In this document: positions 6,452 through 61,265 of the stretch, piece by piece
How the letters are laid out: each line of letters starts with the position of its first letter
Numbering within the stretch: position 1 is the stretch's first letter
Source: Pontibacter russatus
GTDB taxonomy: Bacteria > Bacteroidota > Bacteroidia > Cytophagales > Hymenobacteraceae
Length of the DNA stretch: 64,000 bases
Direction: 5' to 3'
Assembly: GCF_009931655.1 (NCBI RefSeq)
Contig: NZ_CP047984.1
Location: forward strand, 2,993,001 to 3,057,000
The notes under the pieces: model-generated
The model's database searches: none
The model's input: only the letters and a program-made list of their open reading frames with translations
Told to the model about the DNA's origin: nothing
Made by a program: the position numbers and the translations under genes

Positions 6452-6503
6452 CCTGTATAAACAGCGCCGCCTCCGGTGCAGGAGGCGGCGCTGTTTATAC
6501 AGG
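6452..6503 (-). terminator. Long perfect hairpin after proS
   Basis: 23-bp perfect arms 6452-6474 and 6481-6503, six-base loop. The outer part of the stem is AT-rich instead of a free U-run. It is positioned to end proS transcription and insulate the floA operon. Confidence 0.75.
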
Positions 6504-13440: not shown

Positions 13441-13502
13441 GCTATATATAAATGAGGAAGGGCAGGCTATATATAGCCTGCCCTTCCTCATTTATATATA
13501 GC
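13441..13502. terminator. 62-bp perfect palindrome, bidirectional terminator
   Basis: 31 bases on each side of the 13471/13472 centre are exact reverse complements with no unpaired loop. TATATA lies at both ends and at the centre, GC-rich sequence between. It separates convergent DPP4-like and ClC genes. Confidence 0.8.
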
Positions 13503-17090: not shown

Positions 17091-17407
17091 TGCGTTCGCA
17101 ATTAGAAATTAAAAATTAGAAATTATGGGGAAGCGTAACCAGTTCTGGGTCCAACCACCCCAGGACATTTACCTCACACCAGCCCTCTCCTAAAAACAGG
17201 AGAGGGTGCTTTAGTTCTACTCCTTCCTTCTGCATAGCAAGCGCCTGCTTATATATGGTTGTATATGCTGGGCTTCATTTACAGCTATATCTTCAACTAT
17301 AGTCTTTAAAATTAAAGGAGGCAGAACCAGACTCCCCTCCTTGGACAAGGAGGGGCAGGGGTGGTTGGATTACGTTTGCAGAACAATCAACAATCAACAA
17401 CCACCAA
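17091..17407. repeat. Intergenic region with REP-like palindromes
   Basis: It holds AT-rich aattagaaatt repeats (17100-17125), a hairpin with arms 17183-17191 and 17198-17206, and a second with arms 17334-17342 and 17347-17355. CCAACCACCCC at 17151-17161 is the inverse of GGGGTGGTTGG at 17358-17368. The second hairpin arm plus tail (17347-17368) matches 21 of 22 bases of 47352-47373, so it belongs to a dispersed family. No gene is visible. Confidence 0.7.
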
Positions 17408-19128: not shown

Positions 19129-20193
19129 ATGCACGAGAAAAAGCTCCAAACCGCGTCCGTTGCGGGTGCCGACCTGTTCAAGATCGACATCCACACGCAT
19201 ATACTGCCGCGCACGTGGCCGGACCTGCGGGAGCGCTACGGCTACGGCGGCTTTGTAAGGCTGGAGCACCACAAGCCCTGCTGTGCCCGCATGATGATGG
19301 ACGACAAGTTCTTCCGGGAGATACAGGACAACTGCTGGGACCCCGAAGTGCGCATGCACGAGTGCAGCCAGCACCGGGTGGGCGTGCAGGTGCTGAGCAC
19401 GGTGCCCGTCATGTTTAACTACTGGGCCAGGCCGGAGCACACCCACGACCTGTCCCGGATGCTGAACGACCATATAGCCGGCGTGGTGGCCGACTACCCG
19501 GACCGGTTTGTGGGCCTGGGCACGCTACCGATGCAGGCGCCGGATCTGGCGGTAAAGGAGCTGGAGCGTTGCGTGAAAGAACTGGGGCTGGCGGGCGTCC
19601 AGATCGGCACGCACATCAACGAGCATAACCTGGACTCGCCTTACCTCTTCCCGGTTTTCCAGGCGGCGGAGGAATTGGGCGCAGCTGTTTTCGTGCATCC
19701 CTGGGACATGTTTGGCAAGAAGAAGATGAGCAAATACTGGCTGCCCTGGCTGGTGGCTATGCCCGCCGAGACAAGCCTCGCCATCTGCTCCATGATTTTC
19801 GGCGGTGTGTTCGAGCGCCTGCCGAAGCTGCGCGTGGCCTTTGCACACGGCGGCGGCTCTTTTCCGGCCACCATCGGCCGCATCGCCCACGGCTTTGAGG
19901 TGCGGCCCGACCTCTGTGCCGTCGACAACAACGTGAACCCCCGCGAGTACCTCGGCAGGTTTTACCTGGATTCGCTGGTGCATGAGCCGAAGGTGCTGGA
20001 GTACCTGGTGGAGTTGGTGGGGGCAAACTGCATCGCCCTTGGCACTGACTACCCGTTCCCGCTGGGCGAACTGGAGCCGGGCAAACTCATCGAATCCATT
20101 CCTTATGGGCAGGCCACCAAAAACCGCATGCTGCACGGCACCGCCCTGGAGTGGCTGAACCTGCAGAAAGAGCAGTTTGTGAAAGGGAGTTGA
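19129..20193 (+). CDS. nbaD: 2-Amino-3-carboxymuconate-6-semialdehyde decarboxylase (ACMSD)
   Basis: Amidohydrolase-fold decarboxylase diverting the ring-opened product from quinolinate/NAD synthesis to 2-aminomuconate semialdehyde. The 354 residues show the zinc ligands H22 and H24 (IDIHTHILP), H190 (VHPWDM), the catalytic H240 (FAHGGGSFP) and D307 (GTDYPFPLGE). The sequence matches ACMSD along its whole length. The ATG at 19129 leaves a slightly long N-terminus (MHEKKLQTASVAGAD) before the first strand. With HAO upstream and kynureninase downstream the pathway role is firm. Confidence 0.95.
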   Translation: MHEKKLQTASVAGADLFKIDIHTHILPRTWPDLRERYGYGGFVRLEHHKPCCARMMMDDKFFREIQDNCWDPEVRMHECSQHRVGVQVLSTVPVMFNYWARPEHTHDLSRMLNDHIAGVVADYPDRFVGLGTLPMQAPDLAVKELERCVKELGLAGVQIGTHINEHNLDSPYLFPVFQAAEELGAAVFVHPWDMFGKKKMSKYWLPWLVAMPAETSLAICSMIFGGVFERLPKLRVAFAHGGGSFPATIGRIAHGFEVRPDLCAVDNNVNPREYLGRFYLDSLVHEPKVLEYLVELVGANCIALGTDYPFPLGELEPGKLIESIPYGQATKNRMLHGTALEWLNLQKEQFVKGS

Positions 20194-20464
20194 TTTCTAG
20201 TTGCACTGCATAATCATCGTGGCTGGACAGATATGCAAGGCCCATTTGATACTGACATTGCATATATTCCCTATATGATTTATAGATAGCTCTGCTCCCA
20301 AGAACCTCGCAGCGTGCGCACCCGCCCCGCAGGCTTGCGGGAGCTCCTGCGAGCGTCTGCCGCAACGCCTGTTCCTCTCATCCGTAACTCAAAACGCAAA
20401 TTCGTATATTCGCAGCGTTCCCAAAACAATACCTGCCGCGGCAGCTTCTATATATAAAATCCGC
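20194..20464. other. Intergenic region with GC-rich fold before kynU
   Basis: Two short nested stems are visible: CTCGCAG 20306-20312 with 20347-20353, and CCCGCA 20326-20331 with 20336-20341. There is no U-run. It may be a leader structure or a REP-like repeat. No gene is seen. Confidence 0.35.
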
Positions 20465-21739
20465 ATGAACTACCAGAATACCCTTGCCTTTGCGCAGGAG
20501 CAGGACCGGCGCGACCCGCTTTATCACTTCCGGGATCGCTTTTACTATCCGCAGGTAAACAGGCAGGATGCCATCTACTTCTGCGGCAACTCCCTGGGGC
20601 TGCAGCCAAAATCGGCGCAGATGTACATCGACAATGAAATGTACAAGTGGGCGAACCTGGCTGTGGAAGGCCACTTTAAAGGAGAGGAGCCCTGGGTGAA
20701 TTACCATGAACTGCTGGCGCCGGGTGCTGCCCGCGTGGTGGGGGCCAAAGAGAGCGAGGTGGTGATCATGAACCAACTGACCGTGAACCTGCACCTCATG
20801 CTGGTGTCTTTCTACCGCCCGCAGGGCAGGCGCTATAAAATTATCACCGAAGGCGGCGCTTTCCCCTCCGACCAGTACGCGCTTGAGACACAGACAAAAT
20901 TCCATGGCTATAACCCCGATGATGCCGTCATTGAACTGTTCCCGCGCGAGGGGGAGCACACGCTGCGCACGGAGGATATACTGCAAAGCATACAGGCACA
21001 TGCCGACGAGCTGGCGCTGGTGATGATGGGCGGCATTAACTACTACACCGGGCAGGTGTTCGATATGGAGGCCATCACGAAAGCAGGGCATGCGGCTGGT
21101 GCTTTCGTTGGCTTTGACCTGGCGCACGCCGCCGGGAACGTGCCGCTGCGCCTGCACGACTGGGATGTGGACTTTGCCGTGTGGTGCACCTACAAATACC
21201 TGAACTCCGGGCCCGGCGGCACCTCCGGGGTATACGTACATGAGCGTTTCGGCAATGACCTTTCCATCCCGCGTTTTGCCGGCTGGTGGGGGCACAATTC
21301 AAAAGAGCGCTTTCAGATGAAAAAAGGCTTCCGGCCGATGGCAGGGGCGGCAGGCTGGCAACTGAGCAACAGCCAGATTCTGCCGATGGCCGTGCATCGC
21401 GCCTCGCTGCAGCTGTTCGACGAGGCAGGCATGGAGAGCCTCCGCGCCAAAAGCGAAAAGCTGACGGGCTACCTCGAGTACCTGATAGATGACGTGAAGG
21501 CGGGGGAGGACGTGCTGGAGATGATTACGCCGCGCGACCCGCAGGCCCGCGGCTGCCAGATTTCGCTGCTCGTGAAACAGCACTCCCGCCTGCTGTTCGA
21601 GCGGCTGATGAACGCCGGTATTATTGTGGATTACCGGGAGCCGGACGTGATCCGGGTGGCACCCGCGCCGCTCTACAACGGCTTTGAGGAAGTGTACCGC
21701 TTCTCCGAGATTCTGCACCAATGCCTCCGGGACGTGTAG
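20465..21739 (+). CDS. kynU: Kynureninase
   Basis: PLP enzyme cleaving 3-hydroxykynurenine (or kynurenine) to 3-hydroxyanthranilate (or anthranilate) and alanine. 424 residues; the PLP lysine is K244 in WCTYKYLNSGPGG, with the preceding GFDLAHAAGNVPL strand (216-228) supplying the Asp contact. The N-terminal YFCGNSLGLQPK motif (38-49) is characteristic. The ATG at 20465 is well placed. It lies 271 bases after the ACMSD gene and is closed by a hairpin at 21757-21788. Confidence 0.96.
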   Translation: MNYQNTLAFAQEQDRRDPLYHFRDRFYYPQVNRQDAIYFCGNSLGLQPKSAQMYIDNEMYKWANLAVEGHFKGEEPWVNYHELLAPGAARVVGAKESEVVIMNQLTVNLHLMLVSFYRPQGRRYKIITEGGAFPSDQYALETQTKFHGYNPDDAVIELFPREGEHTLRTEDILQSIQAHADELALVMMGGINYYTGQVFDMEAITKAGHAAGAFVGFDLAHAAGNVPLRLHDWDVDFAVWCTYKYLNSGPGGTSGVYVHERFGNDLSIPRFAGWWGHNSKERFQMKKGFRPMAGAAGWQLSNSQILPMAVHRASLQLFDEAGMESLRAKSEKLTGYLEYLIDDVKAGEDVLEMITPRDPQARGCQISLLVKQHSRLLFERLMNAGIIVDYREPDVIRVAPAPLYNGFEEVYRFSEILHQCLRDV

Positions 21740-21756
21740 AGGCACGGGCGGTGCAG

Positions 21757-21788
21757 CCGGCAGGCGCGGCAAAATCTTCGCCTGCCGG
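21757..21788 (+). terminator. Terminator after kynU
   Basis: 10-bp perfect arms 21757-21766 and 21779-21788, 12-base loop, followed by a short T-rich stretch. Confidence 0.6.
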
Positions 21789-21859
21789 TTATGCTTTTGT
21801 TATCCGTTTATATATAAATGCTAGGTATATGGTTAAACGTAGCGTGGTAAAGGATAAGA

Positions 21860-23323
21860 ATGAACTTTACGATTGAAGACATACTGCTCGGAGCATCCGT
21901 GCTGCTCCTGATAAGCATCCTGATCAGCAAGAGCCTGGGCCGGTTCGGTATCCCGGCGCTCATCCTGTTCCTGGGCGTGGGTATGCTGGCCGGCTCGGAG
22001 GGCATCGGCGGTATACACTTCGACGATTCTCTTACGGCACAGTCAATGGGCAGCATTGCTCTGACGCTCATACTTTTCTCGGGAGGCCTGGACACGCGCT
22101 GGGAAAATATACGGCCAATCCTATGGCGTGGGGTGGTGCTCTCCACGCTGGGGGTTTTTATCACGGCCATGCTGCTGGGGGTGTTTGTTTCCTGGGTTAC
22201 GGGCTTCACCCTGCTGGAGGGGTTGCTGCTCGGCTCCATTGTTTCCTCTACCGATGCGGCGGCCGTATTCTCTATTCTCCGCTCCAAAAACCTCGGGCTC
22301 AAACACAACCTGAGGCCCACACTGGAGCTGGAGTCGGGCAGTAACGACCCGATGGCCTATTTCCTGACGGTGAGCTTTACGTATCTGGTGATGAACCAGG
22401 AGGAGGCCAGCATCCTGCAGCTGGTGCCCATGTTCCTCATGCAGATGAGCATCGGCGGAGCCATGGGCGTGGCCATGGGCCGGGGCATGGCCTGGGTTAT
22501 CAACAACATCAAGCTGCAGCAGGAGGGGCTGTACCCGGCGCTCACGCTGGGGATGGTTATCTTCACCTACGCGTTTACCAACCTCATCAGCGGAAACGGC
22601 TTTCTGGCTGTCTATATAGCGGCGGTGGTGCTCGGCAACAAAAACTTTATCCACAAGGGCAGCCTTACCCGGTTCTACGACGGGGTGGCCTGGCTCATGC
22701 AGATCATGATGTTCCTGACGCTGGGCCTGCTGGTGTTTCCCTCCGAGATGCTGCCCGTCATCGGCACGGGCCTGCTCATCTCGCTGTTCCTGATGTTAGT
22801 GGCCCGCCCCGTCAGCGTGTTTCTCGGGCTCGCCTTTTTCAAAGTGTCCCTGCCCGAAAAATTGTACATCTCCTGGGTGGGGCTCCGGGGGGCGGTGCCC
22901 ATTGTGTTTGCCACCTACCCCTTGCTGGCGGGCGTGGAGAAGTCGGGGATGATCTTTAACATCGTGTTCTTTATCGTACTCACCTCCGTCATGCTGCAGG
23001 GCACCACGCTGTCGGTGGTGGCAAAATGGCTCGGGCTGAGTGAGCGGGACAACAAACCAAAAAAGATACAGCTGGGGGAGGAGATGGGGTACGATGCCAA
23101 AAACGCCCTGGTGGAGGTGGAACTGACAAGCCAGAGCACCGCCATCGGCAAATCTATTGTGGAGCTGCTGTTTCCCAGAACCGCGCTGATTGTGCTGATA
23201 GACCGGGGAGGGAAATTCGTGACGCCCAATGGCGGCACTGTGCTGGAGAGCAACGACAAGCTGCTGGTGATGGTGGACAACGACGAGGAACTGGAAAAGG
23301 TGAACGCGGCTCTGGGCCTATAG
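21860..23323 (+). CDS. CPA1-type potassium/proton antiporter with TrkA-C domain
   Basis: 487 residues resembling NhaP2/CvrA. Twelve or so membrane segments occupy residues 5-395. The transport-site motifs SSTDAAAVFS (near 130) and ELESGSNDPMAYFL (near 155) are intact. A cytoplasmic RCK_C/TrkA-C domain (about 415-487: VEVELTSQSTAIGKSIVELL) would sense a ligand. Members exchange K+ or Na+ for H+. It opens a block of ion transporters continuing to 31980, though gaps argue for separate transcripts. Confidence 0.92.
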   Translation: MNFTIEDILLGASVLLLISILISKSLGRFGIPALILFLGVGMLAGSEGIGGIHFDDSLTAQSMGSIALTLILFSGGLDTRWENIRPILWRGVVLSTLGVFITAMLLGVFVSWVTGFTLLEGLLLGSIVSSTDAAAVFSILRSKNLGLKHNLRPTLELESGSNDPMAYFLTVSFTYLVMNQEEASILQLVPMFLMQMSIGGAMGVAMGRGMAWVINNIKLQQEGLYPALTLGMVIFTYAFTNLISGNGFLAVYIAAVVLGNKNFIHKGSLTRFYDGVAWLMQIMMFLTLGLLVFPSEMLPVIGTGLLISLFLMLVARPVSVFLGLAFFKVSLPEKLYISWVGLRGAVPIVFATYPLLAGVEKSGMIFNIVFFIVLTSVMLQGTTLSVVAKWLGLSERDNKPKKIQLGEEMGYDAKNALVEVELTSQSTAIGKSIVELLFPRTALIVLIDRGGKFVTPNGGTVLESNDKLLVMVDNDEELEKVNAALGL

Positions 23324-23560
23324 CCTGAGTACCCGGGCGAGCACTCTCCCTGGAGGCATCGCACATCCTATACAGTTAGTAACACCCATATCGGATGGGT
23401 TTTGCGCAGCGGGTATGCGCAAAATCTTAGTGGATAAGGGCATAATCTGTGAGGCGCGATACAAATGTCCTGTGTCCTTCTACTTCTATATAAAGTACCA
23501 CTGCTGGCAGGCTACTGCTCAAATCGGGGCCATGCGGTTTCATTTTAGCCCCGGATGTGC

Positions 23561-23568
23561 TATTTTTG
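23561..23568 (+). promoter_or_regulatory. TAnnTTTG box before a small secreted-protein gene
   Basis: TATTTTTG at 23561-23568 matches the -7 consensus; a T-rich upstream region stands in for the -33 box. If used, transcription would start almost at the ATG at 23575. Confidence 0.3.
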
Positions 23569-23574
23569 TACCGC

Positions 23575-23964
23575 ATGATGCTGCACAGGAAAACGACAGG
23601 CTATTATTTCCGCTATCCGCTTATGGCGGTGATGCTGCTCTGGGCGCTCACCCTGCCGGGGCAGGAGGTGGCGGTCTATAGCTTTCTGTTTCATGGCACG
23701 GCATCCGGGTTAACCCTCCAGTCGGCGACAGCTGCAGGCGAGGGGCAGGCGGCGGTACAAGAGCAGGCGGTGCAGGCATTCCAGGACGCCAGAGTGTCTT
23801 CCTGCCCGGAGATAGACCTGGCGCAGCCCATAAAGCAGCCCCTGCTGCTGCTGGCCTTTGCCGCACCCACCAACGAACCGATCCCTGCTTTTTCCACAGG
23901 CGCTGCAGGAGTCAGGCTTTTAGCGCAGCTGCTGCCCGCCACGCTGCAACCCAACGCTCCTTAG
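23575..23964 (+). CDS. Small putative secreted protein
   Basis: 129 residues from the ATG at 23575 (ATG-ATG). A basic start (MMLHRKTTGYYFRYP) leads into one hydrophobic segment (LMAVMLLWALTLPG), consistent with a signal sequence or anchor. The rest is Ala/Gln/Pro-rich with no recognised domain. I see no homologous family from memory. The hydrophobic N-terminus and a possible promoter box argue for a gene; the compositional plainness argues for caution. Confidence 0.4.
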   Translation: MMLHRKTTGYYFRYPLMAVMLLWALTLPGQEVAVYSFLFHGTASGLTLQSATAAGEGQAAVQEQAVQAFQDARVSSCPEIDLAQPIKQPLLLLAFAAPTNEPIPAFSTGAAGVRLLAQLLPATLQPNAP

Positions 23965-24016
23965 GGCTTCCTCCTCTTTCTCTTTTTTCAGAAGGCAAGC
24001 GCGTGGTTGCGCCCCT

Positions 24017-24152
24017 GGCCGCGCCCGCTTTTGGCGGGATATGCCATATGGAGGCGGACTGCGCCCGCAGCGCAGTCCGCCCAGAGCCATGGGCCTGGCT
24101 GGCATGCTGCCGTGCCTTCTGCCTTTCATCTTATTCAGAAGCGGGCGCGGCC
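24017..24152. other. Nested GC-rich inverted repeats, possible structured RNA
   Basis: An outer 14-bp perfect stem (24017-24030 with 24139-24152) encloses a six-base stem (24041-24046 with 24100-24105) and a 12-bp perfect hairpin (24053-24064 with 24070-24081). The region is non-coding and lies 50 bases before a small gene. It could be a cis-acting RNA, a small RNA or a mobile palindromic element. Confidence 0.35.
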
Positions 24153-24201
24153 TCCCAAAAGCATTGCCGGGCCTGTTCGGGTTAGCTGTAAATAGAGCGC
24201 T

Positions 24202-24378
24202 ATGGCAAACTTTGCAATCGTTATTTCATGGGCGGCCATCACCGGGATCATGGTGGGTTTGGTCGCCCCGAAGAGGAGCCTCTTCTGGTATCCCGGGGAG
24301 CAGAACAGGATAAACGTCCTCGTCATATATGGCTTCCTGCTCCTGATGTCGTTTATCGTTTTCGCCGTAACGGAGTAA
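24202..24378 (+). CDS. 58-residue two-helix membrane protein
   Basis: Short open frame beginning MANFAIVISWAAITGIMVG and ending AVTE. There are two hydrophobic helices (about 4-21 and 38-56) joined by a polar loop with WYPGEQNR. This is a typical small inner-membrane protein. The basic residues (PKR at 23-25, R34) sit in the loop, suggesting both ends face the same side. It lies between antiporter genes, which suggests but does not prove an accessory role. I do not recognise a named family. Confidence 0.6.
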   Translation: MANFAIVISWAAITGIMVGLVAPKRSLFWYPGEQNRINVLVIYGFLLLMSFIVFAVTE

Positions 24379-24691
24379 GCCTGCCGGAGAGCGGGAACCG
24401 CGGGGGCTTATATATAAAGTTCATATATAAACGCCCTAACAAAATGAGCTTCATCTGCTTTGTCATCCTGCAAACTATATACCCGGAAGGACGGGAAAAC
24501 TGTAACTAAACCGTATAGCTGCCCGGCATTTATATAGGGCACTTCTGCCGCGCATAAAGTCTGGCCAATTGTTCCGGAGCCCGCATGATGGCAGCATGCA
24601 GAGATGAACGCAATTTACCGTATATTGTAGATTGCGTATAGCTTGTAGCACTTATTCAGTACGCTTTTCTTTAGGAGACAACCATCTTTGA
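24379..24691. other. Intergenic region before the first CPA2 antiporter
   Basis: It contains TATATA runs (near 24412 and 24424), a fragment tttgtcatcctgcaa at 24459-24473 resembling one at 32029-32040, and an AGGAG at 24673-24677 that may help place the start at 24692. Confidence 0.45.
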
Positions 24692-26926
24692 ATGACACAT
24701 TTACCGAACTTAATTACGGATTTAGGGCTGATACTTGGGGCAGCAGGCGTTACCACCCTTCTTTTTAAGTGGCTGAAGCAGCCCCTGGTGCTGGGATACA
24801 TCATCGTCGGGTTGCTGGTGGGGCCGCACACGCCCCTTTTTCCCTCCATCGTCGAAACCGAGAACATTAACATATGGGCCGAGATTGGCGTCATCTTCCT
24901 GCTGTTCAGCCTGGGGCTGGAGTTCAGTTTCAAGAAGCTGGTGAAGGTGGGCGGGGCCTCCTCCATCATGGCTTTCGTGGAGGTGGTGGTGATGCTGCTG
25001 CTCGGCTACGTCACGGGCCAGTTGCTCGGCTGGTCCACGATGGACAGCATTTTCCTGGGCGGCATCCTCTCCATCTCCTCCACCACCATCATCATCCGTG
25101 CGTTTGAGGAGCTGGGCGTGAAGTCGCAGCGGTTCGCGGGGCTGGTGTTCGGGGTGCTGATTGTGGAGGACCTAGTGGCTATCCTGCTGCTGGTGCTGCT
25201 CTCCACGCTGGCGGTGAGCCAGCAGTTTGCTGGCTCCGAGATGCTGGAGGCGGTGCTGAAACTCGGCTTCTTTCTGCTGCTGTGGTTCCTGGCGGGTATT
25301 TTTCTCATCCCCACTTTCCTCAGGAGGGCCAGCAAGCTGATGAACGACGAGATGCTGCTGATCGTTTCGCTGGCGCTCTGCCTGCTGATGGTGATACTGG
25401 CGGCGCAGGTGGGCTTCTCCCCGGCGCTGGGCGCCTTCATCATGGGCTCCATCCTGGCCGAGACGACCAAGGCGGAAAAGATAGAGCACCTCATCGCCCC
25501 GGTCAAGGACCTGTTCGGGGCCATCTTCTTCGTGTCGGTGGGCATCCTCATCGACCCGTCCATGATGGTGGAGTATGCCGGGCCCATCGCGGTGATAACG
25601 CTGGTGACGCTGGTGGGTAAGTTTATGAGCATCACGAGCGGCGGCCTGATGGCGGGACAGGGGCTGAAGACATCTATACAATCTGGTATGAGCGTCTCGC
25701 AGATCGGCGAGTTCTCCTTCATCATCGCCACGCTCGGTCTCACCCTCAACGTGACCAGCGACTTCCTCTATCCCGTGGCCGTGGCGGTGTCGGCCATCAC
25801 CACCTTCACCACGCCCTATATGATCCGCTATTCCGAGCCGCTGTACAGGTCGGTGGAGCGGGTGCTGCCGGAGAAGTGGAAAGCCTCGCTGAGCGAATAC
25901 AACTCCGGCGCGCAGACCATCGGCACCACCAGCGACTGGAAACTGGTGCTGCGGTCCTACACCCTCAACCTGGTGGTATACTCCGCCATCATGATTGCCA
26001 TTGTCATCCTCTCTGCCAGCTACGCCAATCCCTTTATTCGGGAGAACGTGGTGGGCGGCAACCTCGGAGACCTGCTGACCACGGCGGTCACGCTTGTTTT
26101 TATGGCGCCTTTCCTGTGGGCCCTGGCCATCCACCACCCGCAGCAGGAGGCGCAGGGGCGTATATGGGCGAACAAGAACTACCGCAGCCTGATCATCGTG
26201 CTGGAGTTTGCCCGGATCGGCATCGCCATTCTGTTCATCGGGTTTCTGCTCCACCAGTTCTTCTCGGTGCAGGTCGCCATTGTGGTGGGCCTGATCATTA
26301 TTGCGCTGCTGGCCGTTTTCTCCCAGCGTATCCAGGCTTTCTATATCCGGATAGAGACCCGCTTTATGAACAACCTGAACGCCCGCGAGATCAGCGAGGC
26401 AGCCAAAATGCACCACACCCTCACGCCCTGGGACGCCCGCCTGACCAGCTTCGATGTCTCGCCTGAGTCCGTCATAGTAGGGAAGAGCCTCGTGGAGCTG
26501 CAGATAAGGGAGAAGTATGGGGTAAACGTGGCCGTGATAGAGCGGGGCAGCCGCACCATTATGGCACCCACGCGCAACGAGCGGGTGCTGCCCGGCGACC
26601 GTATATATGCTTTCGGGACGGATGACCAGATGGAGACCTTCCGGCAACTGATGGAGGCGGAGGTGGAGACGGCCGCAAACGGCGGGGACGGGAAAGAAGA
26701 CATCCGGCTTCAGAAGCTTCTGGTTACGGGCAACTCGCCGCTGCTGCACACCTCCATACGGGAGGCGGGGGTGCGGGAGAAAACCAAGGGCCTGATAGTG
26801 GGCGTCGAGAAAAACGGCAGGCGCATCCTCAACCCGGACTCTGACCTGGTGTTTGAGGAAGGCGACATTGTCTGGATAGTGGGCAGCCCGTGGCGCATCA
26901 GCAAACTGGAGGCGGCCATGCATTAG
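24692..26926 (+). CDS. CPA2-family cation/proton antiporter, copy 1
   Basis: 744-residue KefB/YjbQ-like antiporter. The membrane domain (1-390) has LFSLGLEFSFKKL, the transport-site stretch LVFGVLIVEDLVAILLL (near 150-166) and QIGEFSFIIATLGL (near 333). Two more hydrophobic stretches follow (430-450, 510-545). The C-terminal half carries two RCK_C/TrkA-C domains (about 578-660 and 670-744: REAGVREKTKGLIVGVE). No nucleotide-binding RCK_N domain is evident between them. It likely exchanges K+ or Na+ for H+ under C-terminal ligand control. It has a tandem paralogue downstream. Confidence 0.92.
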   Translation: MTHLPNLITDLGLILGAAGVTTLLFKWLKQPLVLGYIIVGLLVGPHTPLFPSIVETENINIWAEIGVIFLLFSLGLEFSFKKLVKVGGASSIMAFVEVVVMLLLGYVTGQLLGWSTMDSIFLGGILSISSTTIIIRAFEELGVKSQRFAGLVFGVLIVEDLVAILLLVLLSTLAVSQQFAGSEMLEAVLKLGFFLLLWFLAGIFLIPTFLRRASKLMNDEMLLIVSLALCLLMVILAAQVGFSPALGAFIMGSILAETTKAEKIEHLIAPVKDLFGAIFFVSVGILIDPSMMVEYAGPIAVITLVTLVGKFMSITSGGLMAGQGLKTSIQSGMSVSQIGEFSFIIATLGLTLNVTSDFLYPVAVAVSAITTFTTPYMIRYSEPLYRSVERVLPEKWKASLSEYNSGAQTIGTTSDWKLVLRSYTLNLVVYSAIMIAIVILSASYANPFIRENVVGGNLGDLLTTAVTLVFMAPFLWALAIHHPQQEAQGRIWANKNYRSLIIVLEFARIGIAILFIGFLLHQFFSVQVAIVVGLIIIALLAVFSQRIQAFYIRIETRFMNNLNAREISEAAKMHHTLTPWDARLTSFDVSPESVIVGKSLVELQIREKYGVNVAVIERGSRTIMAPTRNERVLPGDRIYAFGTDDQMETFRQLMEAEVETAANGGDGKEDIRLQKLLVTGNSPLLHTSIREAGVREKTKGLIVGVEKNGRRILNPDSDLVFEEGDIVWIVGSPWRISKLEAAMH
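24872..25609 (+). repeat. Direct repeat: CPA2 copy 1 membrane-domain tracts
   Basis: Exact matches to copy 2 at 24872-24954 (27395-27477), 24986-25101 (27509-27624) and 25379-25609 (27902-28132), separated by diverged DNA. Identity includes synonymous positions. Confidence 0.9.
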
Positions 26927-27214
26927 CGCGGGGCAGGCGGAGAGACGTGCGCCCCGTGCATTCATTGTCGGAGCCGGCAGCAAGCCGTGCCCGGTTTATA
27001 TATACCCATATAAGAGGCAGGGAAGCGGCACCAAGGGCAGTTCGGGGGCGCTGGCTGCCACCAGCCCGGAGCCATATAGAAGCGGTTAAATGCGGCATAT
27101 AGCAGCAACTCCTGTGGCAGGGCATATACAGCAAGTGTGAACTTCGCGCCTTTGCGTAGTCTTTCGGGTTACCTGTGTTTTACTATGCGCAAATGAATCA
27201 GAGCTAAAAACCAC

Positions 27215-29470
27215 ATGACGCATCTCCCACACTTAATCGCCGATTTAGGCCTGCTGCTCGGGGCCGCTGGCATTACCAGCCTGTTGTTCAAATGGATTAA
27301 GCAACCCGTGGTGCTGGGGTATATCATCGCTGGCCTGCTGGTGGGGCCGCACTTCTCGTTTTTCCCCTCCATAGCCGACACAGGCAACATCCGGATATGG
27401 GCCGAGATTGGCGTCATCTTCCTGCTGTTCAGCCTGGGGCTGGAGTTCAGTTTCAAGAAGCTGGTGAAGGTGGGCGGCTCCTCGTCTGTCATGGCCCTGA
27501 CGGAGATCGTGGTGATGCTGCTGCTCGGCTACGTCACGGGCCAGTTGCTCGGCTGGTCCACGATGGACAGCATTTTCCTGGGCGGCATCCTCTCCATCTC
27601 CTCCACCACCATCATCATCCGTGCCTTTGAGGAACTGGGCGTGAAGTCGCAGCAGTTCGCGGGGCTGGTGTTCGGGGTGCTGATTGTGGAGGACCTGGTG
27701 GCTATCCTGCTGCTGGTGCTGCTCTCCACGGTGGCGGTGAGCCAGCAGTTCGCTGGCACGGAGATGCTCACCTCCGTCCTGAAGCTCGGCTTCTTTCTGA
27801 TGGTATGGTTTCTGGGAGGCATCTTTCTCATCCCCACTTTTCTGAAGAAAGCCGGGAAATACATGAACGAGGAGACGCTGCTGATCGTGTCCATCGCGCT
27901 TTGCCTGCTGATGGTGATACTGGCGGCGCAGGTGGGCTTCTCCCCGGCGCTGGGCGCCTTCATCATGGGCTCCATCCTGGCCGAGACGACCAAGGCGGAA
28001 AAGATAGAGCACCTCATCGCCCCGGTCAAGGACCTGTTCGGGGCCATCTTCTTCGTGTCGGTGGGCATCCTCATCGACCCGTCCATGATGGTGGAGTATG
28101 CCGGGCCCATCGCGGTGATAACGCTGGTGACGGTTGGCGGCAAGTTTATGAGCATCACGAGCGGGGCGCTGATGGCGGGCAAAGGGCTGAAGACCGCTAT
28201 CCAGTCGGGCATGAGCGTCTCGCAGATCGGCGAGTTCTCCTTCATCATCGCCACGCTCGGGCTGACGTTGAATGTGACCAGCGATTTTCTGTACCCGATT
28301 GCGGTGGCGGTGTCGGCCATCACCACCTTCACCACGCCCTATATGATCCGCTACTCCGAGCCGCTGTACAGGCGCATCGAGGCGCTGCTGCCCGCCAGGT
28401 GGCAGAAGGCGCTGAACAGGTATAACACGGGCGCCCACACCATCTCCACCACCAGCGACTGGAAGCCGGTGCTGAAGTCTTACGCCCTGAACCTGGTCAT
28501 CTTCTCCGTTATCATTGTGGCCATTGTCATGTTCTCGGTGCGTGTGCTGAACCCCTTTATCATGGAGAATGTAGCGGGAGGCAACTCGGGCGATTTGCTG
28601 ACGACTACCATCACGCTGCTGGCCATGGCCCCCTTCCTGTGGGCGCTGGCTGTGTACCACCCGCAGCAGGAGGCGCAGGCCAGGCTCTGGGCAAACAAGA
28701 ACTACCGCAACCTGCTGATTGTGCTGGAGTTTGTGCGGGGCCTCGTCGCGGTCCTGTATGTGGGCTTCCTGCTCAACCAGATTTTCTCTGTCCGGGTAAC
28801 GCTCGCCATCAGCCTGCTCATCATCGCGCTGCTCGCCTTCTTCTCCAAAAGGATCCAGGGCTTTTACTCAACAATAGAGAGCCGCTTTTTGTCCAACCTC
28901 AACGCCCGGGAGATTGAGGAGTTCAAACGGATGCACCACGACATTGCCCCCTGGAACGCCCACCTCACCAGCCTCGACATCAAGCCACGGTCTGTAGTTG
29001 TGGGCGAAACCCTCGAGCACCTTCAGATAAGGGAGAAGTTCGGGGTGAACATTGCCGTTATCGAGCGCGGCGGGTATACTGTGATGCCTCCCACCAAGGA
29101 TGAGAGGGTATACCCCGGCGACAGAATCTATATCTTTGGGACGGATGAGCAGATTGAGACATTCCGGAAGTATATAGAGGAAAAAGCGATGCTTGCCGCC
29201 AACGAGGGCGCAGAGCGCGAGGACGTGCGGCTTCAGAAGCTTGTCGTGACCCACAATTCGCAGCTGTTGCACAAAACCATACGGGAGTCGGGCATCCGGG
29301 AGAAAACCAAAGGGCTGATAGTGGGCATAGAGCGGGACGGAAAGAGAATCATGAACCCCGACTCATTCCTGTCCTTCGCCGAGGGAGACATCCTGTGGGT
29401 GGTGGGCACGCCCTGGCGCATCAAGCAACTGGAGGCAGACAAGCAGGATAGCGCACCCTTGCAGAGGTGA
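27215..29470 (+). CDS. CPA2-family cation/proton antiporter, copy 2
   Basis: 751 residues, collinear with copy 1 at a constant 2523-base offset through the membrane domain. It keeps the same motifs (LFSLGLEFSF, VLIVEDLVAILLL, QIGEFSFII) and the same paired C-terminal TrkA-C domains. Differences cluster in the extreme N-terminus, the 185-225 loop and the C-terminal 350 residues, so the two may differ in ligand control more than in transport. DNA is identical to copy 1 over 83, 116 and 231 bases. The 288-base gap from copy 1 allows a separate promoter. Confidence 0.92.
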   Translation: MTHLPHLIADLGLLLGAAGITSLLFKWIKQPVVLGYIIAGLLVGPHFSFFPSIADTGNIRIWAEIGVIFLLFSLGLEFSFKKLVKVGGSSSVMALTEIVVMLLLGYVTGQLLGWSTMDSIFLGGILSISSTTIIIRAFEELGVKSQQFAGLVFGVLIVEDLVAILLLVLLSTVAVSQQFAGTEMLTSVLKLGFFLMVWFLGGIFLIPTFLKKAGKYMNEETLLIVSIALCLLMVILAAQVGFSPALGAFIMGSILAETTKAEKIEHLIAPVKDLFGAIFFVSVGILIDPSMMVEYAGPIAVITLVTVGGKFMSITSGALMAGKGLKTAIQSGMSVSQIGEFSFIIATLGLTLNVTSDFLYPIAVAVSAITTFTTPYMIRYSEPLYRRIEALLPARWQKALNRYNTGAHTISTTSDWKPVLKSYALNLVIFSVIIVAIVMFSVRVLNPFIMENVAGGNSGDLLTTTITLLAMAPFLWALAVYHPQQEAQARLWANKNYRNLLIVLEFVRGLVAVLYVGFLLNQIFSVRVTLAISLLIIALLAFFSKRIQGFYSTIESRFLSNLNAREIEEFKRMHHDIAPWNAHLTSLDIKPRSVVVGETLEHLQIREKFGVNIAVIERGGYTVMPPTKDERVYPGDRIYIFGTDEQIETFRKYIEEKAMLAANEGAEREDVRLQKLVVTHNSQLLHKTIRESGIREKTKGLIVGIERDGKRIMNPDSFLSFAEGDILWVVGTPWRIKQLEADKQDSAPLQR
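27395..28132 (+). repeat. Direct repeat: CPA2 copy 2 membrane-domain tracts
   Basis: Counterpart of 24872-25609 at a fixed offset of 2523 bases, with no indel between the tracts. Confidence 0.9.
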
Positions 29471-29485
29471 CCGGCTATATATGAA

Positions 29486-29547
29486 TTGCCCCGGCACCGC
29501 TGCGGCGGGGCAACAACCTGTCTCTTATATATAAATCTATATATAAG
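29486..29547 (+). terminator. Double hairpin after CPA2 copy 2
   Basis: A GC-rich stem (29486-29493 with 29506-29513) is followed by a pure TATATA stem (29524-29533 with 29538-29547, loop of four). It resembles the paired stems after rfbA. Confidence 0.55.
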
Positions 29548-29576
29548 GCGGGAGGAAACTTAGAAAAGATTTTTGT

Positions 29577-30503
29577 ATGCGAAGAGTAGAACACTGGATT
29601 GAAGAGGCCGTAGGCCTGCCAGCCGATGTCCAGCATAACATACTGTCGTCTGTGGTGGTGCTGGCGGGGCTGTGGATCATCAGCAGGCTGCTGCTGCGCG
29701 TTGCCTCCCAGCGCCAGACGGACTCCCGGAAACTGTTCCAGTGGAAAAAGACGACAAACTATGTGGTGACGGGGCTGGGCATCATCTTCCTGGCGAATAT
29801 ATGGTTCGATGGCTTCCAGTCTATCGCCACGTTCCTGGGGCTGCTTTCCGCAGGCTTGGTGGTGGCCCTCCGCGACCCCATCGTGAACATGTTTGGCTGG
29901 GTGTTCCTGATATGGAAGCGGCCTTTCAAGATAGGGGACAGGATCAAGATAAATGAATACACCGGCGACGTGATCGACATCGCTTTTTTCCAGTTCACCT
30001 TAAACGAACTCGGGCAGTGGGTCGACTCTGAGCAGGCGACGGGGCGCGTGGTGCACCTGCCAAACAGCTATGTCTTTACGCATGCGCAGATCAACTACAA
30101 CTACGCCTTCCCTTTTCTGTGGAACGAGGTGCAGGTCCATATCACCTTCGAGAGCGACTGGCAGAAAGCCAAAACCATCCTGCAGGGCATCGCCAACAGG
30201 TGCTCGGTAGAGTTGAGCGAGACGGCAGAGCAGCGGGTGAGGCGGGAGTCGCAGCGGCACCTTATTTTCTACCAGAACTTCCAACCCAAAGTGTACACCA
30301 AAGTGCGGGAGAACGGCATTCAGCTGACCATCCGCTACCTCTGCAACCTGAACGGCCGCCGCGACAGCGAAAACCAGCTCTGGGAAGAAGTGCTGCATCA
30401 GTTCAAGGGGGCCCCTGATATCAGGTTCGCCTACCCCACCACCCGCTTTTACCAGACGCCTGGAGACCAGTTGCAGGGCCCGCAGACAAACAGGCCCGCT
30501 TAA
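29577..30503 (+). CDS. MscS-family mechanosensitive channel
   Basis: 308 residues. Two or three membrane segments (about 22-40, 60-78, 80-100) end in the pore-like helix SIATFLGLLSAGLVVALRDP. The conserved beta domain follows with MFGWVFLIWKRPFKIGDRIKI and VVHLPNSYVF, then an alpha/beta vestibule domain. MscS channels open under membrane tension to release solutes during hypo-osmotic shock. It lies between antiporter genes on the same strand. The ATG at 29577 follows the TATATA double hairpin by 29 bases. Confidence 0.92.
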   Translation: MRRVEHWIEEAVGLPADVQHNILSSVVVLAGLWIISRLLLRVASQRQTDSRKLFQWKKTTNYVVTGLGIIFLANIWFDGFQSIATFLGLLSAGLVVALRDPIVNMFGWVFLIWKRPFKIGDRIKINEYTGDVIDIAFFQFTLNELGQWVDSEQATGRVVHLPNSYVFTHAQINYNYAFPFLWNEVQVHITFESDWQKAKTILQGIANRCSVELSETAEQRVRRESQRHLIFYQNFQPKVYTKVRENGIQLTIRYLCNLNGRRDSENQLWEEVLHQFKGAPDIRFAYPTTRFYQTPGDQLQGPQTNRPA

Positions 30504-30611
30504 ATTTGCCGCCTTGTCGCCCTGCCTCTTCTTCCAAAGCGCCTTCTCTATTCTGAGGCAGCCCATGCCTGCTTCTCGTCATCAGGCTACCGGCATGACT
30601 ATAAATGCGCG

Positions 30612-30623
30612 AACTACGTAGTT
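30612..30623. promoter_or_regulatory. 12-bp palindrome upstream of the CPA1 gene
   Basis: AACTACGTAGTT is a perfect dyad 80 bases before the start at 30703. It is a possible operator; a chance palindrome is not excluded. Confidence 0.25.
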
Positions 30624-30702
30624 ATGCCTACTCCGGCCAGTATATCAGGCTTAAGGAGCTATAAGAAGGGCGGCACAGCACTGGCGCTGGCAGCAAACTC
30701 AT

Positions 30703-31980
30703 ATGAATGACTATATAATAGCGATAGCCGTGATAGGTTTTGCCGCCATGTCCATGACGTGGGTGCCGGCCCTCATGGAGAAGACGCCCTTTTCATACCC
30801 TATCGTGTACCTGTTGCTGGGGATGCTCCTATACCTGCTGCCCCTGGGGCTGCCCACACCCGACCCGCTCTGGCAGGAAGACTACGTGGTGCGGCTCACC
30901 GAATTCAGCGTCATTATCTCGCTGATGGGCACGGGCCTGAAGATCAGGCGGAAGTTCGGGTTCAAGAGGTGGCGCATACCGTTGCGGCTGGTAAGCATCA
31001 CCATGTTGCTGAGCATTGCGGCCATCGCGCTGCTGGGGTGGAGCGTGCTGGGCTTTTCGGTGGCGGGCGCCGTGCTGCTGGGCGCCGTGCTGGCCCCAAC
31101 CGACCCGGTGCTGGCGGAGCAGGTGCAGGTAGGCCCGCCACATGAGGAGGAGGAGGACGTGGTGCGCTTCTCGCTCACGGCCGAGGCGGGGCTGAACGAC
31201 GGCTCGGCTTTCCCGTTCACGTGGCTGGCCATCGTGCTGGCCGTGTCGGCCGGGGCGGGGGGCGACTGGTTTGCAGACTGGCTGCTGCGCGATGTGCTGT
31301 ACAAGGTAGCGGTAGGGATAGGGGCGGGCTTCCTGATTGGCCGCGGGCTGGCTTTTCTGGTTTATATCCTCCCCAGAAAGACGAAGTTCCCGAAGGCGGA
31401 GCACGGCTTTCTGGCCCTCTCTGCTACCCTGGTTACCTATGGGGTAACCGAATTGCTGCACGGCTACGGTTTTATTGCTGTGTTTGTGGCGGCGCTTGCC
31501 ATGAGCAGCGTGGAAGAGGAGCACGCGTATAATACCGAAATGCATGATTTCGTGAACCAGGTGGAACGCATTATCATGGTGGTTTTGCTGGTGCTGTTCG
31601 GCGGGAGTATCGTCACCGGTATCTTAGATTACCTGACCTGGCAGGGCGCCTTGATTGGGCTGGCCTTTTTGTTTCTCATCAGGCCCCTCACTGCCTTACC
31701 GAGCCTGCTGGGGACGTTCTCCACCGCCAAGGAGAAACTGGCAATCTGCTTTTTTGGCATCCGGGGCATCGGCTCGTTTTTTTACCTCTCGTTCGGCTTA
31801 GATAAAATTGCCTTGCCGGAGGCTAATGAGCTGTGGTCGGTGGTGGCGTTTATCGTGATGGTGTCCATCATCCTGCATGGCATAACCGCCACCAAAGTTA
31901 TTACTGATTTAGATATGGAGCGCAAGAAAAGCCGCCGCCCCGTCCCTGACTCAGACCAAACCCCGGAAGATATTTTTTGA
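30703..31980 (+). CDS. CPA1-family sodium/proton antiporter
   Basis: 425 residues without a regulatory tail. Transport-site motifs are APTDPVLA (near 131) and EAGLNDGSAFPF (near 161), with FFGIRGIGSFFYL late in the protein, as in NhaP-type antiporters. About twelve membrane segments are visible. A short charged tail ends in PDSDQTPEDIF. It is the fourth antiporter of the block and the only one lacking TrkA-C. The ATG at 30703 is preceded by a GGAGC-containing stretch, with the palindrome 30612-30623 further upstream. Confidence 0.92.
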   Translation: MNDYIIAIAVIGFAAMSMTWVPALMEKTPFSYPIVYLLLGMLLYLLPLGLPTPDPLWQEDYVVRLTEFSVIISLMGTGLKIRRKFGFKRWRIPLRLVSITMLLSIAAIALLGWSVLGFSVAGAVLLGAVLAPTDPVLAEQVQVGPPHEEEEDVVRFSLTAEAGLNDGSAFPFTWLAIVLAVSAGAGGDWFADWLLRDVLYKVAVGIGAGFLIGRGLAFLVYILPRKTKFPKAEHGFLALSATLVTYGVTELLHGYGFIAVFVAALAMSSVEEEHAYNTEMHDFVNQVERIIMVVLLVLFGGSIVTGILDYLTWQGALIGLAFLFLIRPLTALPSLLGTFSTAKEKLAICFFGIRGIGSFFYLSFGLDKIALPEANELWSVVAFIVMVSIILHGITATKVITDLDMERKKSRRPVPDSDQTPEDIF

Positions 31981-32110
31981 AAAGCATCTGTCAAGAATTA
32001 ATGTACACATCAGCTTGAGACATTCTTCTTTGTCATCCTTCCAAGATGACAGAATGGAAATCAGCTTGTAAATCATATATAACAGCATTCCTGCTATATA
32101 TCTGAACCAC

Positions 32111-32704
32111 TTGCACAATTACCCCTTGCAAAAGTTAGACTTGCCCGACGCCACCATCTGTTACGCGCCGCACTTCTTCGGCCCGGAAGAGAGCGATGCG
32201 TACTTTCAGGCGCTGGAGCAGCATATAAACTGGCAGCAGGAGCACATCAGGATGTTTGGCAAGGAACTGCCGATGCCGCGCCTCACCGCCTGGTACGGCG
32301 ATAGAAGCTACACGTACTCGGGGCTATACAACGCGCCGCAGCCGTGGGTGCCGGTGTTGCAGGAACTGAAGAACCAGGTGGAACTGGCCAGCGGCCATAT
32401 ATATAACAGCGTGCTCCTGAACTTCTACCGCCACGGCAACGACAGCATGGGCTGGCACGCCGACAACGAGCCGGAGCTGGGGGAGGAGCCAGCCATCGCC
32501 AGCCTGAGCCTTGGCGGCGAGCGCCGCTTCAGCCTGAAGCACCGCACCCGCAAAGACCTGGAGCCGGTATATATAACGCTGGCGCACGGCAGCCTGCTGC
32601 TGATGCAGGGCCCCACGCAACACCACTGGCTCCACCACATCCCCAAAACCAAGCGCCCCGTACAACCACGCATCAACCTCACTTTCCGGCACGTGAAAGG
32701 CTAG
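32111..32704 (+). CDS. alkB: AlkB-like 2-oxoglutarate-dependent DNA repair dioxygenase
   Basis: 197 residues. Iron ligands are in GWHADNEPELG (His and Asp) and in the THHWLHHIPK strand (His); RINLTFR supplies the 2-oxoglutarate-binding Arg. The nucleotide-recognition lid (MPRLTAWYGD, YTYSGLYN) matches the AlkB/ALKBH2 group, which directly reverses alkylation of A and C bases. The frame has no upstream ATG before a stop at 32069, and the first internal ATG would remove essential strands, so initiation at the TTG at 32111 is inferred. KMO follows 69 bases downstream and may be co-transcribed. Confidence 0.9.
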   Translation: MHNYPLQKLDLPDATICYAPHFFGPEESDAYFQALEQHINWQQEHIRMFGKELPMPRLTAWYGDRSYTYSGLYNAPQPWVPVLQELKNQVELASGHIYNSVLLNFYRHGNDSMGWHADNEPELGEEPAIASLSLGGERRFSLKHRTRKDLEPVYITLAHGSLLLMQGPTQHHWLHHIPKTKRPVQPRINLTFRHVKG

Positions 32705-32773
32705 CAGACGTTGCCAATCCGGGCCGGATACCGTTACTTTACAGCGTCAAGCGGCCCTGGGCCCTGCATCTAT

Positions 32774-34153
32774 ATGACCGAGAAAAAGAACATAGCCATC
32801 ATGGGAGCCGGTTTGGTGGGCTCGCTGCTGTCGTTGTACCTGGCCAGGCGCGGCCACAGGGTAGACCTCTACGAGCGCCGCCCCGACCTCCGCACCACCG
32901 TGGTGGACCGCGGCCGCTCCATCAACCTTGCCCTCAGCGACCGGGGCTGGCGTGCCCTCAAAGGCATTGGCATAGAGGAGGAGGTGCGCAAGGTGGCCAT
33001 CCCGATGCGCCGCCGCGTGATGCACGACGAACGGGGCAACCTCACCTTCCAGCCCTACGGCAAAGAGGGGCAGGCCATATACTCCGTGTCAAGGGGCGGG
33101 CTGAACGTGGCGCTGATGAACCTCTCGGAGCCGAACCCGGACATCACCTTCCACTTCAGCCGCCAGGCCTTGGACGTGAACCTGCGCACCAACGAGGTGC
33201 AGCTGCGCAACCTGGAGACAGGCGCGTTGGAAACGGTGCAGCCGGACCTGCTTTTCGGGGCCGACGGGGCTTTCTCGGTGGTGCGGGGGGCGATGCAGAA
33301 AACGGAGCGCTTCAACTACGAGCAGCGTTACCTGGAGTACGGCTATAAGGAACTGACCATCCCGGCGGCGGCTGGCGGCGGATGGGTGATAGAAAAGAAC
33401 GCGCTGCATATATGGCCGCGCGGCAACTATATGATGATCGCCCTGCCCAACCTGGACGGCAGCTTCACCTGCACGCTTTTCTTTCCCTACGAGGGCGAGC
33501 ACTCTTTCGCCGCCATCCAAAAAGAGGAGGATTTGCTGCGCTTTTTCCAGGAGGTGTTCCCGGATGCCCTGCCGCTGATGCCGGATTTGGCGGAGGAGTA
33601 TTTCGGGAACCCGGTCGGCTCGCTGGTGACGGTGAAGTGTTTCCCATGGAGCTTTGAGGGCAGGTCGCTGCTGATCGGTGACGCCAGCCATGCGGTGGTG
33701 CCCTTTTACGGCCAGGGCATGAACGCCGGTTTTGAGGACATCACGGTGCTGGACCAGATGCTGGAAGCCTTTGAGGGCGATGACTGGGAAGGTCTTTTCA
33801 AGGCTTTCGAGCGCCGCCGCAAGCCCGACGCCGACGCCATCGCCGACCTGGCCGTGCTCAACTTCATCGAGATGCGCGACAAGGTGGCGGACCCGCGTTT
33901 CCTGCTCCGCAAAAAGATAGAAGGTAAAATATCAGCGCAGTACCCCGACCACTGGATCCCGCTTTACTCCATGGTCACCTTCACCGACCTGCCCTATTCC
34001 TACGCCCTCGAAACAGGCCGGAAGCAGGACGAGATCATGCAAATGGTGATGAAGCACATCAAAACAGTGGAAGACTACGACAAGCCGGAGGTGCAGCGCC
34101 TGCTGGAGAAACAGCTCATCCGGAAAGAAAAACTCAAGCCATATAGGGGGTAG
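32774..34153 (+). CDS. kmo: Kynurenine 3-monooxygenase
   Basis: Flavin monooxygenase hydroxylating L-kynurenine to 3-hydroxykynurenine. 459 residues from the ATG at 32774, the codon directly before the FAD-binding strand. Dinucleotide motif GAGLVGS is at 11-17, the signature RSINLALSDRGW near 57, and the second FAD motif LLIGDASHAVVPFYGQGMNAG near 300. A C-terminal hydrophobic patch (YSMVTFTDLPYSYAL) corresponds to the KMO active-site region. It completes the kynurenine route encoded at 15645-21739 although it lies 11 kb away, next to alkB. Confidence 0.96.
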   Translation: MTEKKNIAIMGAGLVGSLLSLYLARRGHRVDLYERRPDLRTTVVDRGRSINLALSDRGWRALKGIGIEEEVRKVAIPMRRRVMHDERGNLTFQPYGKEGQAIYSVSRGGLNVALMNLSEPNPDITFHFSRQALDVNLRTNEVQLRNLETGALETVQPDLLFGADGAFSVVRGAMQKTERFNYEQRYLEYGYKELTIPAAAGGGWVIEKNALHIWPRGNYMMIALPNLDGSFTCTLFFPYEGEHSFAAIQKEEDLLRFFQEVFPDALPLMPDLAEEYFGNPVGSLVTVKCFPWSFEGRSLLIGDASHAVVPFYGQGMNAGFEDITVLDQMLEAFEGDDWEGLFKAFERRRKPDADAIADLAVLNFIEMRDKVADPRFLLRKKIEGKISAQYPDHWIPLYSMVTFTDLPYSYALETGRKQDEIMQMVMKHIKTVEDYDKPEVQRLLEKQLIRKEKLKPYRG

Positions 34154-37417: not shown

Positions 37418-37481
37418 CCTCTGTATATATAAAAAAGCCCTGCTGGTGCATACCGGCAGGGCTTTTTTATATATACAGAGG
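37418..37481. terminator. Bidirectional terminator with 26-bp perfect stem
   Basis: Arms 37418-37443 and 37456-37481; a G-U pair and three further pairs shrink the loop to four. Each arm contains TATATA next to an A6/T6 tract, giving a U-run on both strands. It overlaps the final stop region of the minus-strand gene at 37482. Confidence 0.88.
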
Positions 37482-47325: not shown

Positions 47326-47373
47326 CCAACTACCCCTGCCCCTCCTTAGACAAGGAGGGGCAGGGGTAGTTGG
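47326..47373. repeat. REP-like 22-bp perfect hairpin
   Basis: Arms 47326-47347 and 47352-47373 with a four-base loop. The right arm matches 17347-17368 at 21 of 22 bases, so this is a dispersed palindromic repeat. Confidence 0.75.
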
Positions 47374-47464
47374 TTTTCATATATAAAAATCGTATCGACC
47401 CTGATTCCGTTTGAGATTCTAAAGAACGACAGCCATCTTGTGCCTAAACTTAACCTCTGTCAAC

Positions 47465-50691: not shown

Positions 50692-50740
50692 GCTATATAA
50701 ACAGCGGCCAGCATCAAATGCTGGCCGCTGTTTATATAGC
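50692..50740 (+). terminator. 23-bp perfect hairpin after LysM gene
   Basis: Arms 50692-50714 and 50718-50740 with a three-base loop; GCTATATA forms the outer end of both arms. Confidence 0.75.
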
Positions 50741-61203: not shown

Positions 61204-61265
61204 CCGGTAAAAAGGCTTCGGGCCATGCAGCATACCTTCTGCATGGCCCGAAGCCTTTTTACCGG
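61204..61265 (+). terminator. 27-bp perfect hairpin terminator
   Basis: Arms 61204-61230 and 61239-61265 with an eight-base loop; the A5/T5 tracts lie inside the stem. Confidence 0.82.

Follow-up and report, generated by a model that had tools for sequence, protein, structure and literature searches.

Two adjacent antiporter genes of Pontibacter russatus, termed copies A and B here, are a new and well-supported example of partial concerted evolution, a process that is already known. The pattern is very probably the product of recent gene conversion within the genome between anciently diverged tandem paralogs, confined to the transport core and most likely directed from A into B. Gene conversion is favored because silent identity is confined to discrete tracts, orthologs lack these tracts, a second tandem pair in the genus carries a tract of its own, and a dispersed pair carries none. 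An earlier note on this DNA had already read the pattern as conversion, and that reading is strongly supported by the tract-confined silent identity, the absence of the tracts from orthologs and a permutation test on silent runs. All positions given below are those of the window, i.e., the whole stretch of 64,000 nucleotides that was analyzed.

Organization of the tandem pair and its surroundings

Copies A and B are intact open reading frames (ORFs) arranged head to tail on the forward strand: copy A, the slower and more ortholog-like gene, occupies positions 24692–26926 (744 amino acids), and its paralog, copy B, occupies positions 27215–29470 (751 amino acids). The P. russatus assembly (genome G000) consists of one contig of 4,965,849 bases, with a listed completeness of 99.99%. 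When the window is compared with itself at an offset of 2523 bases, identity in 50-base steps is 0.18–0.40 before copy A begins and from position 26950 onward. This is near chance; thus, the repeat unit comprises the genes only, and the flanks of the duplication are unrecognizable. Self-comparison of the 64-kb window revealed no further gene-sized pair.

On the basis of domain content, both products are predicted monovalent cation/proton antiporters equipped with TrkA-C regulatory domains. The Pfam model PF00999 scores 200.3 and 190.2 bits in the two copies (gathering score, 26.2 bits) and spans residues 18–377 of copy A, namely the membrane transport core, and PF02080 (TrkA-C) matches two stretches at the C-terminus of each copy. 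The NCBI model of the CPA2 subfamily, TIGR00932, scores 169.3 and 164.8 bits, which is below its curated cut-off of 238.3, and the proteins are therefore named CPA2-like and not filed in that subfamily. In the predicted structure of copy A (pTM 0.55, mean pLDDT 72), extra helices continue past the core up to residue 572 and are followed by two TrkA-C-like folds (residues 583–655 and 672–743). This diverged tail (residues 386–744; 25847–26923) is delimited by the Pfam matches, silent divergence and the structure model. KefC, by comparison, carries an RCK_N-type domain at its C-terminal end. By fold matching, the membrane core of approximately 380 residues resembles that of NapA/KefC-type antiporters (PDB 4bwz, 5bz2, and 8bxg; 27% identical), a relationship that was also recovered by sequence search. 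Copies A and B differ from these antiporters in that the core is followed by approximately 190 residues with additional helices and then by two TrkA-C domains, and Pfam gave no TrkA-N match in either copy.

The region at 19129–34153 contains four PF00999 antiporters (at 21860, 24692, 27215, and 30703) and an MscS-like channel (29577), located between a kynureninase (20465), which scores above the TIGR01814 cut-off, and a flavin monooxygenase (32711), which we take to be a kynurenine monooxygenase; the gene at 19129 is presumably an amidohydrolase. A kynureninase, a CPA2-like antiporter and a monooxygenase occur together in eight of the 18 fetched neighborhoods. A single ortholog occupies the position of the pair in eight syntenic neighborhoods, with the kynureninase on one side and MscS/NhaP on the other. 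Upstream of the antiporter lies an ORF of 135 amino acids that has no Pfam match (23557–23964); its counterparts (31–49% identity) lie within approximately 1.7 kb upstream of the antiporter in 9/18 neighborhoods, among them those of G230, G285, G004, and G033, where no other tested gene of the window was found on that side. This ORF may encode a small protein accessory to the antiporter. Elsewhere in the window, palindromes of 48–64 bases with 90–100% identity are found at 13441–13502 (perfect across 62 bases), 37418–37481, 61204–61265, 6452–6503, 50692–50740, and 47326–47373, and are perhaps terminators or dispersed repeats. An element of 38 bases occurs twice, approximately 30 kb apart, with 92% identity (17334–17371 and 47339–47376).

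Tracts of identity in the transport core

Exact runs of at least 20 bases between the copies at offset 2523 are located, in copy A coordinates, at 24872–24954 (83 bases), 24986–25101 (116), 25132–25173 (42), 25175–25207 (33), 25379–25609 (231), 25619–25641 (23), 25688–25737 (50), 25781–25830 (50), and 26133–26156 (24). The runs of 83, 116, and 231 bases, which correspond to 27395–27477, 27509–27624, and 27902–28132 in copy B, are regarded as converted tracts 1, 2, and 3 on the combined basis of exact identity, sliding silent divergence (pS) and the run test described below; all lie on the forward strand. The runs of 42 and 33 bases are split by one mismatch and form a near-identical stretch of 76 bases (25132–25207, residues 147–172), which is possibly converted but is not significant alone. 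The three significant tracts all fall within residues 61–306, and the core of copy A also includes a diverged island (residues 173–229; 25208–25378) that is evident in both sliding and partitioned pS. Outside the tracts, A and B are 80% identical in the remaining core and 70% identical in the tail. The exact runs and pS values thus confirm the identities of 83, 116, and 231 bases, silent sites included, that the earlier note had reported at a fixed offset of 2523 between otherwise diverged copies, and its view that conversion is limited to the transport core holds as well, given where the three significant tracts lie.

Between A and B, pS is 0.02 in the tracts (a partition that takes in the weaker stretch at residues 147–172), 0.52 in residues 1–60 plus 173–229, 0.41 in the other core, and reaches 0.55 in the tail. 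Sliding windows of 20 codons that lie inside the tracts 1, 2, and 3 give 0.00, as compared with 0.51–0.91 between copy A and its ortholog in G006 over the same windows. Across the tract region, copy A differs from six orthologs, five of them single-copy genes (G001, G003, G006, G021, and G282) and the sixth copy G024a of genome G024, with pS of 0.42–0.65. Such divergence means that the identity of A and B is not explained by protein selection, and the prospect raised in the earlier note, that orthologs might share the tracts, does not hold.

A permutation test on silent runs (10,000 shuffles) assigned P < 1e-4 to residues 230–306, P = 0.003 to residues 97–136, and P = 0.04 to residues 61–87; the smaller A–B runs were singly non-significant in this test (P of 0.33 or more). 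The test was calibrated by applying it to every one of the 561 pairs that can be formed from the 34 copies found in the genus, with 1000 shuffles per pair. P was below 0.001 in only two pairs, both of them tandem pairs within one genome (A/B and the pair of G024); two between-genome pairs stood at 0.001, and nine pairs in total fell below 0.01, as compared with approximately six expected.

Third-position GC of copy A is 0.92 in the tracts (149/162) vs. 0.80 elsewhere (440/548), a larger excess than in any of the 28 single-copy genes. It is also high in the tract of the G024 pair, where one of the 28 single copies is as high as G024a and none is as high as G024b. This elevation, which is seen in both tandem pairs, recalls GC-biased gene conversion in bacteria as treated in PMC4450053. 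However, in a control that took the longest silent run of identity from each of the 558 other pairs, the mean third-position GC excess is 0.116; on the logit scale, the A–B value is reached by 129/558 of these runs (10/47 among runs of at least 12 codons) and the G024 value by 99/558 (4/47 among such runs). Since much of this excess is found in runs that are identical by chance between species, GC-biased conversion of the tracts is not claimed. Copy A falls to a third-position GC of 0.62 right after the longest tract, at 25610–25687 (residues 307–332), as compared with 0.93 inside the tract; copy B has 0.83 at the corresponding place.

Second copies in other genomes and the age of the pair

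The gene is present in 31 of 50 genomes of the genus (E 1e-150), and two copies are found in three of the 31: P. russatus and G024, in which they are in tandem, and G275, in which they are dispersed. The tandem pair of G024 sits in a different neighborhood from A/B and shares an exact run of 86 bases (residues 146–174), which lies apart from the three significant A–B tracts and occupies the same residues as the weaker A–B stretch at 25132–25207. The copies of G275 are approximately 65 kb apart and lack a tract; their longest silent run is 4 (P = 1). They have also diverged further than the tandem copies have, with DNA identity of 72% in the tract columns and 56% in the tail. Adjacency accompanies conversion in 3/3 two-copy genomes, with the caveat that G275 confounds distance with divergence. 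No further tandem pair was found among 80 distant loci checked. In a class-wide sample (E 1e-180), 42 of 394 other genomes had one copy and none had two, with at most two candidates scored per genome, a depth that sufficed to recover both copies of P. russatus.

Trees of different parts of the gene place the second copies differently. In a DNA tree of the tract columns (26 sequences), A joins B with a support of 100 and G024a joins G024b with 94, although the latter two are not joined in the tract protein tree. In the tail, by contrast, B joins G024b with a support of 99 at the DNA and protein levels alike when G275 is left out (26 sequences). Core outside the tracts groups A with B at the DNA level (79) and B with G004 at the protein level (95), and the whole gene groups A with B at the DNA level (90) and B with G024b at the protein level (69). 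When G275 is included, the tail tree groups B with the second copy of each of these two genomes, G024 and G275, adjoining G004, and the clade of B, G024b and the second G275 copy (G275x) has a support of 0.89–0.95.

Topology tests point in the same direction for the G024 pair. Core DNA rejects B + G024b (AU P = 0.018 with 25 of the 34 copies and full search; P = 0.015 with a faster search) and a clade of B, G024b, G275x, and G004 (AU P = 8e-5, same copies and full search). The tract columns alone reject the four-copy clade (P = 0.0045) but not B + G024b (P = 0.097), both with full search. Constrained tract trees from the fast search were imperfect, the one forced to contain A + B scoring 15.8 log units worse than the unconstrained tree; core and tract were therefore redone with full search, and the core result agreed. 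The tail rejects G024a + G024b (AU P = 0.004 with the fast search and 0.013 with all 34 copies), and it rejects A + B jointly with G024a + G024b (P = 0.006 in two analyses, one with all 34 copies). The tail does not reject A + B by itself (AU P = 0.20 and 0.15), though the best tail tree separates A from B. Thus, the comparison of core and tail phylogenies proposed in the earlier note gives a clear conflict for the G024 pair and leaves A + B acceptable in the tail.

The signal is also mixed along the gene. Site likelihoods favor grouping B with the remaining second copies in residues 173–229, 521–582, and 583–660 and with A in residues 1–60, 230–306, and 661–744. Tail residues unique to two copies number five for B + G024b, one for A + B, six for G024b + G275x, three for G024b + G004, and two for A + G024a. 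Outgroups drew G004, G024b, and G275x toward themselves, which indicates that some attraction is present. When G024b and G275x were removed, B shifted beside G032, and B never joined A in six taxon sets with B as query, each run with and without outgroups. Simulation under a uniform LG+G model indicates that long-branch attraction is unlikely to account by itself for the tail topology.

These trees suggest that A and B are likely an old pair common to several species, the core of which was homogenized later inside each genome. Separate lineage-specific duplications in P. russatus and G024, each followed by conversion, are a possible but less probable history, which would alter the age of the pair and not the conversion itself. 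This history would fit the different neighborhood of the G024 pair and the acceptance of A + B in the tail; furthermore, tails simulated with G024a + G024b as the true grouping recovered it in 49/200 trees, and little can therefore be read into its absence from the real tree. It is opposed by the rejection in the tail of G024a + G024b and of both own-genome pairs together, and by tails simulated under separate duplications, in which B + G024b appeared in 5/200 trees, always with a support below 0.93, and the grouping of B with G024b and G275x, supported at 0.89–0.95 in the real tail, appeared in 0/200.

Other origins of the mosaic, and the direction and limits of conversion

A mosaic of the reverse kind, in which A was duplicated recently in tandem and foreign DNA of a related species then replaced most of B outside the tracts, would also yield a patchwork, and W27, M312, and N404 are common to A and B outside the tracts and occur in 0/36 other aligned copies, although W27 is found in distant relatives. 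We consider this origin very unlikely, as the flanks lack the homology expected of a recent duplication and the genus genomes examined contain nothing close to B, whose best match outside its own genome is a 75% identical protein. Moreover, third-position GC of the B-only segments (0.78/0.88/0.80) is close to that of A (0.75/0.85/0.82) and is approached elsewhere only by G003 and partly by G014. An artefact of assembly or polishing, in which reads from one gene would have replaced the sequence of the other where the two are alike, is still harder to credit; tandem paralogs are a known trap, but the genome is in a single contig, the tracts are short with many differences at their borders, and in a separate assembly (G024) the tandem pair there carries a tract as well. 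Finally, selection for an identical core sequence without conversion has a negligible chance of being correct, for although the tracts span conserved membrane segments in which the mean protein distance of single copies is only 0.063, orthologs differ at 0.42–0.65 of the silent sites there and none of the 558 other, between-genome pairs with whole-gene DNA identity below 0.82 has an exact run of at least 83 bases.

Gene conversion would thus have acted on tandem paralogs of ancient divergence. Homologous recombination within the genome, presumably of the RecA type, would recently have transferred no fewer than three stretches of the core (83, 116, and 231 bases), likeliest from A to B, leaving the gene copy number unchanged. 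The direction is probably A to B, and the argument draws on rates only. In the tract regions, the distances of B and A to the single copies are 0.088 and 0.083, and A itself ranks 26 of 28. Elsewhere, B exceeds the single copies: its tail lies at a distance of 0.409 from them (maximum among the 28, 0.402), and in residues 1–60 plus 173–229 it is farther from them than any of the 28. A copy B that is like A in the tracts and beyond all 28 elsewhere suits A as the donor, if indirectly.

Homologous recombination requires near-identical DNA, which persists best in the conserved core. Adjacency of the copies and the high DNA identity of the core would permit exchange, and the tail (extra helices plus two TrkA-C domains) may be too diverged for recombination and would keep the copies distinct. 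The earlier note had also proposed that regulation diversifies around a shared pore. The tail of B does exceed the fastest single copy, but in the 28 single-copy genes as well the mean amino-acid distance is 0.317 in the tail vs. 0.063 in the tract regions. Conversion is therefore expected only where the DNA is still similar enough, a limit of recombination that suffices to explain the pattern, and a selected split between pore and regulation is a possible, optional addition. A more elaborate scheme, which we consider improbable, would treat the old pair as one interchangeable pore with two sensors: the core would be repeatedly reset, perhaps so that mixed dimers fit, and the TrkA-C tails would specialize, independently in two species, homogenization having been lost in the species with copies 65 kb apart.

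Concerted evolution of prokaryotic paralogs driven by conversion is described for tuf, amo genes, mtrA, and others, with mtrA and fla copies in tandem, in PMC6053082. The present pairs resemble those cases in that paralogs of one genome are closer to each other than to orthologs and in that the pattern recurs across related species, and they differ in that only a portion of the gene is homogenized while the rest keeps diverging, and in that just two such pairs have been seen. The words antiporter and transporter are absent from the main text of PMC6053082. A survey of titles and abstract beginnings, covering few subscription journals, returned no report of conversion between bacterial antiporter paralogs.

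The significant tracts are restricted to the conserved half of the gene. For this antiporter family, trees based on the core only would place second copies differently from trees based on the tail. The two-copy genomes also offer a natural case for what bacterial gene conversion needs, because adjacent copies carry tracts in two of the three, and the pair that lies 65 kb apart and is more diverged carries none.
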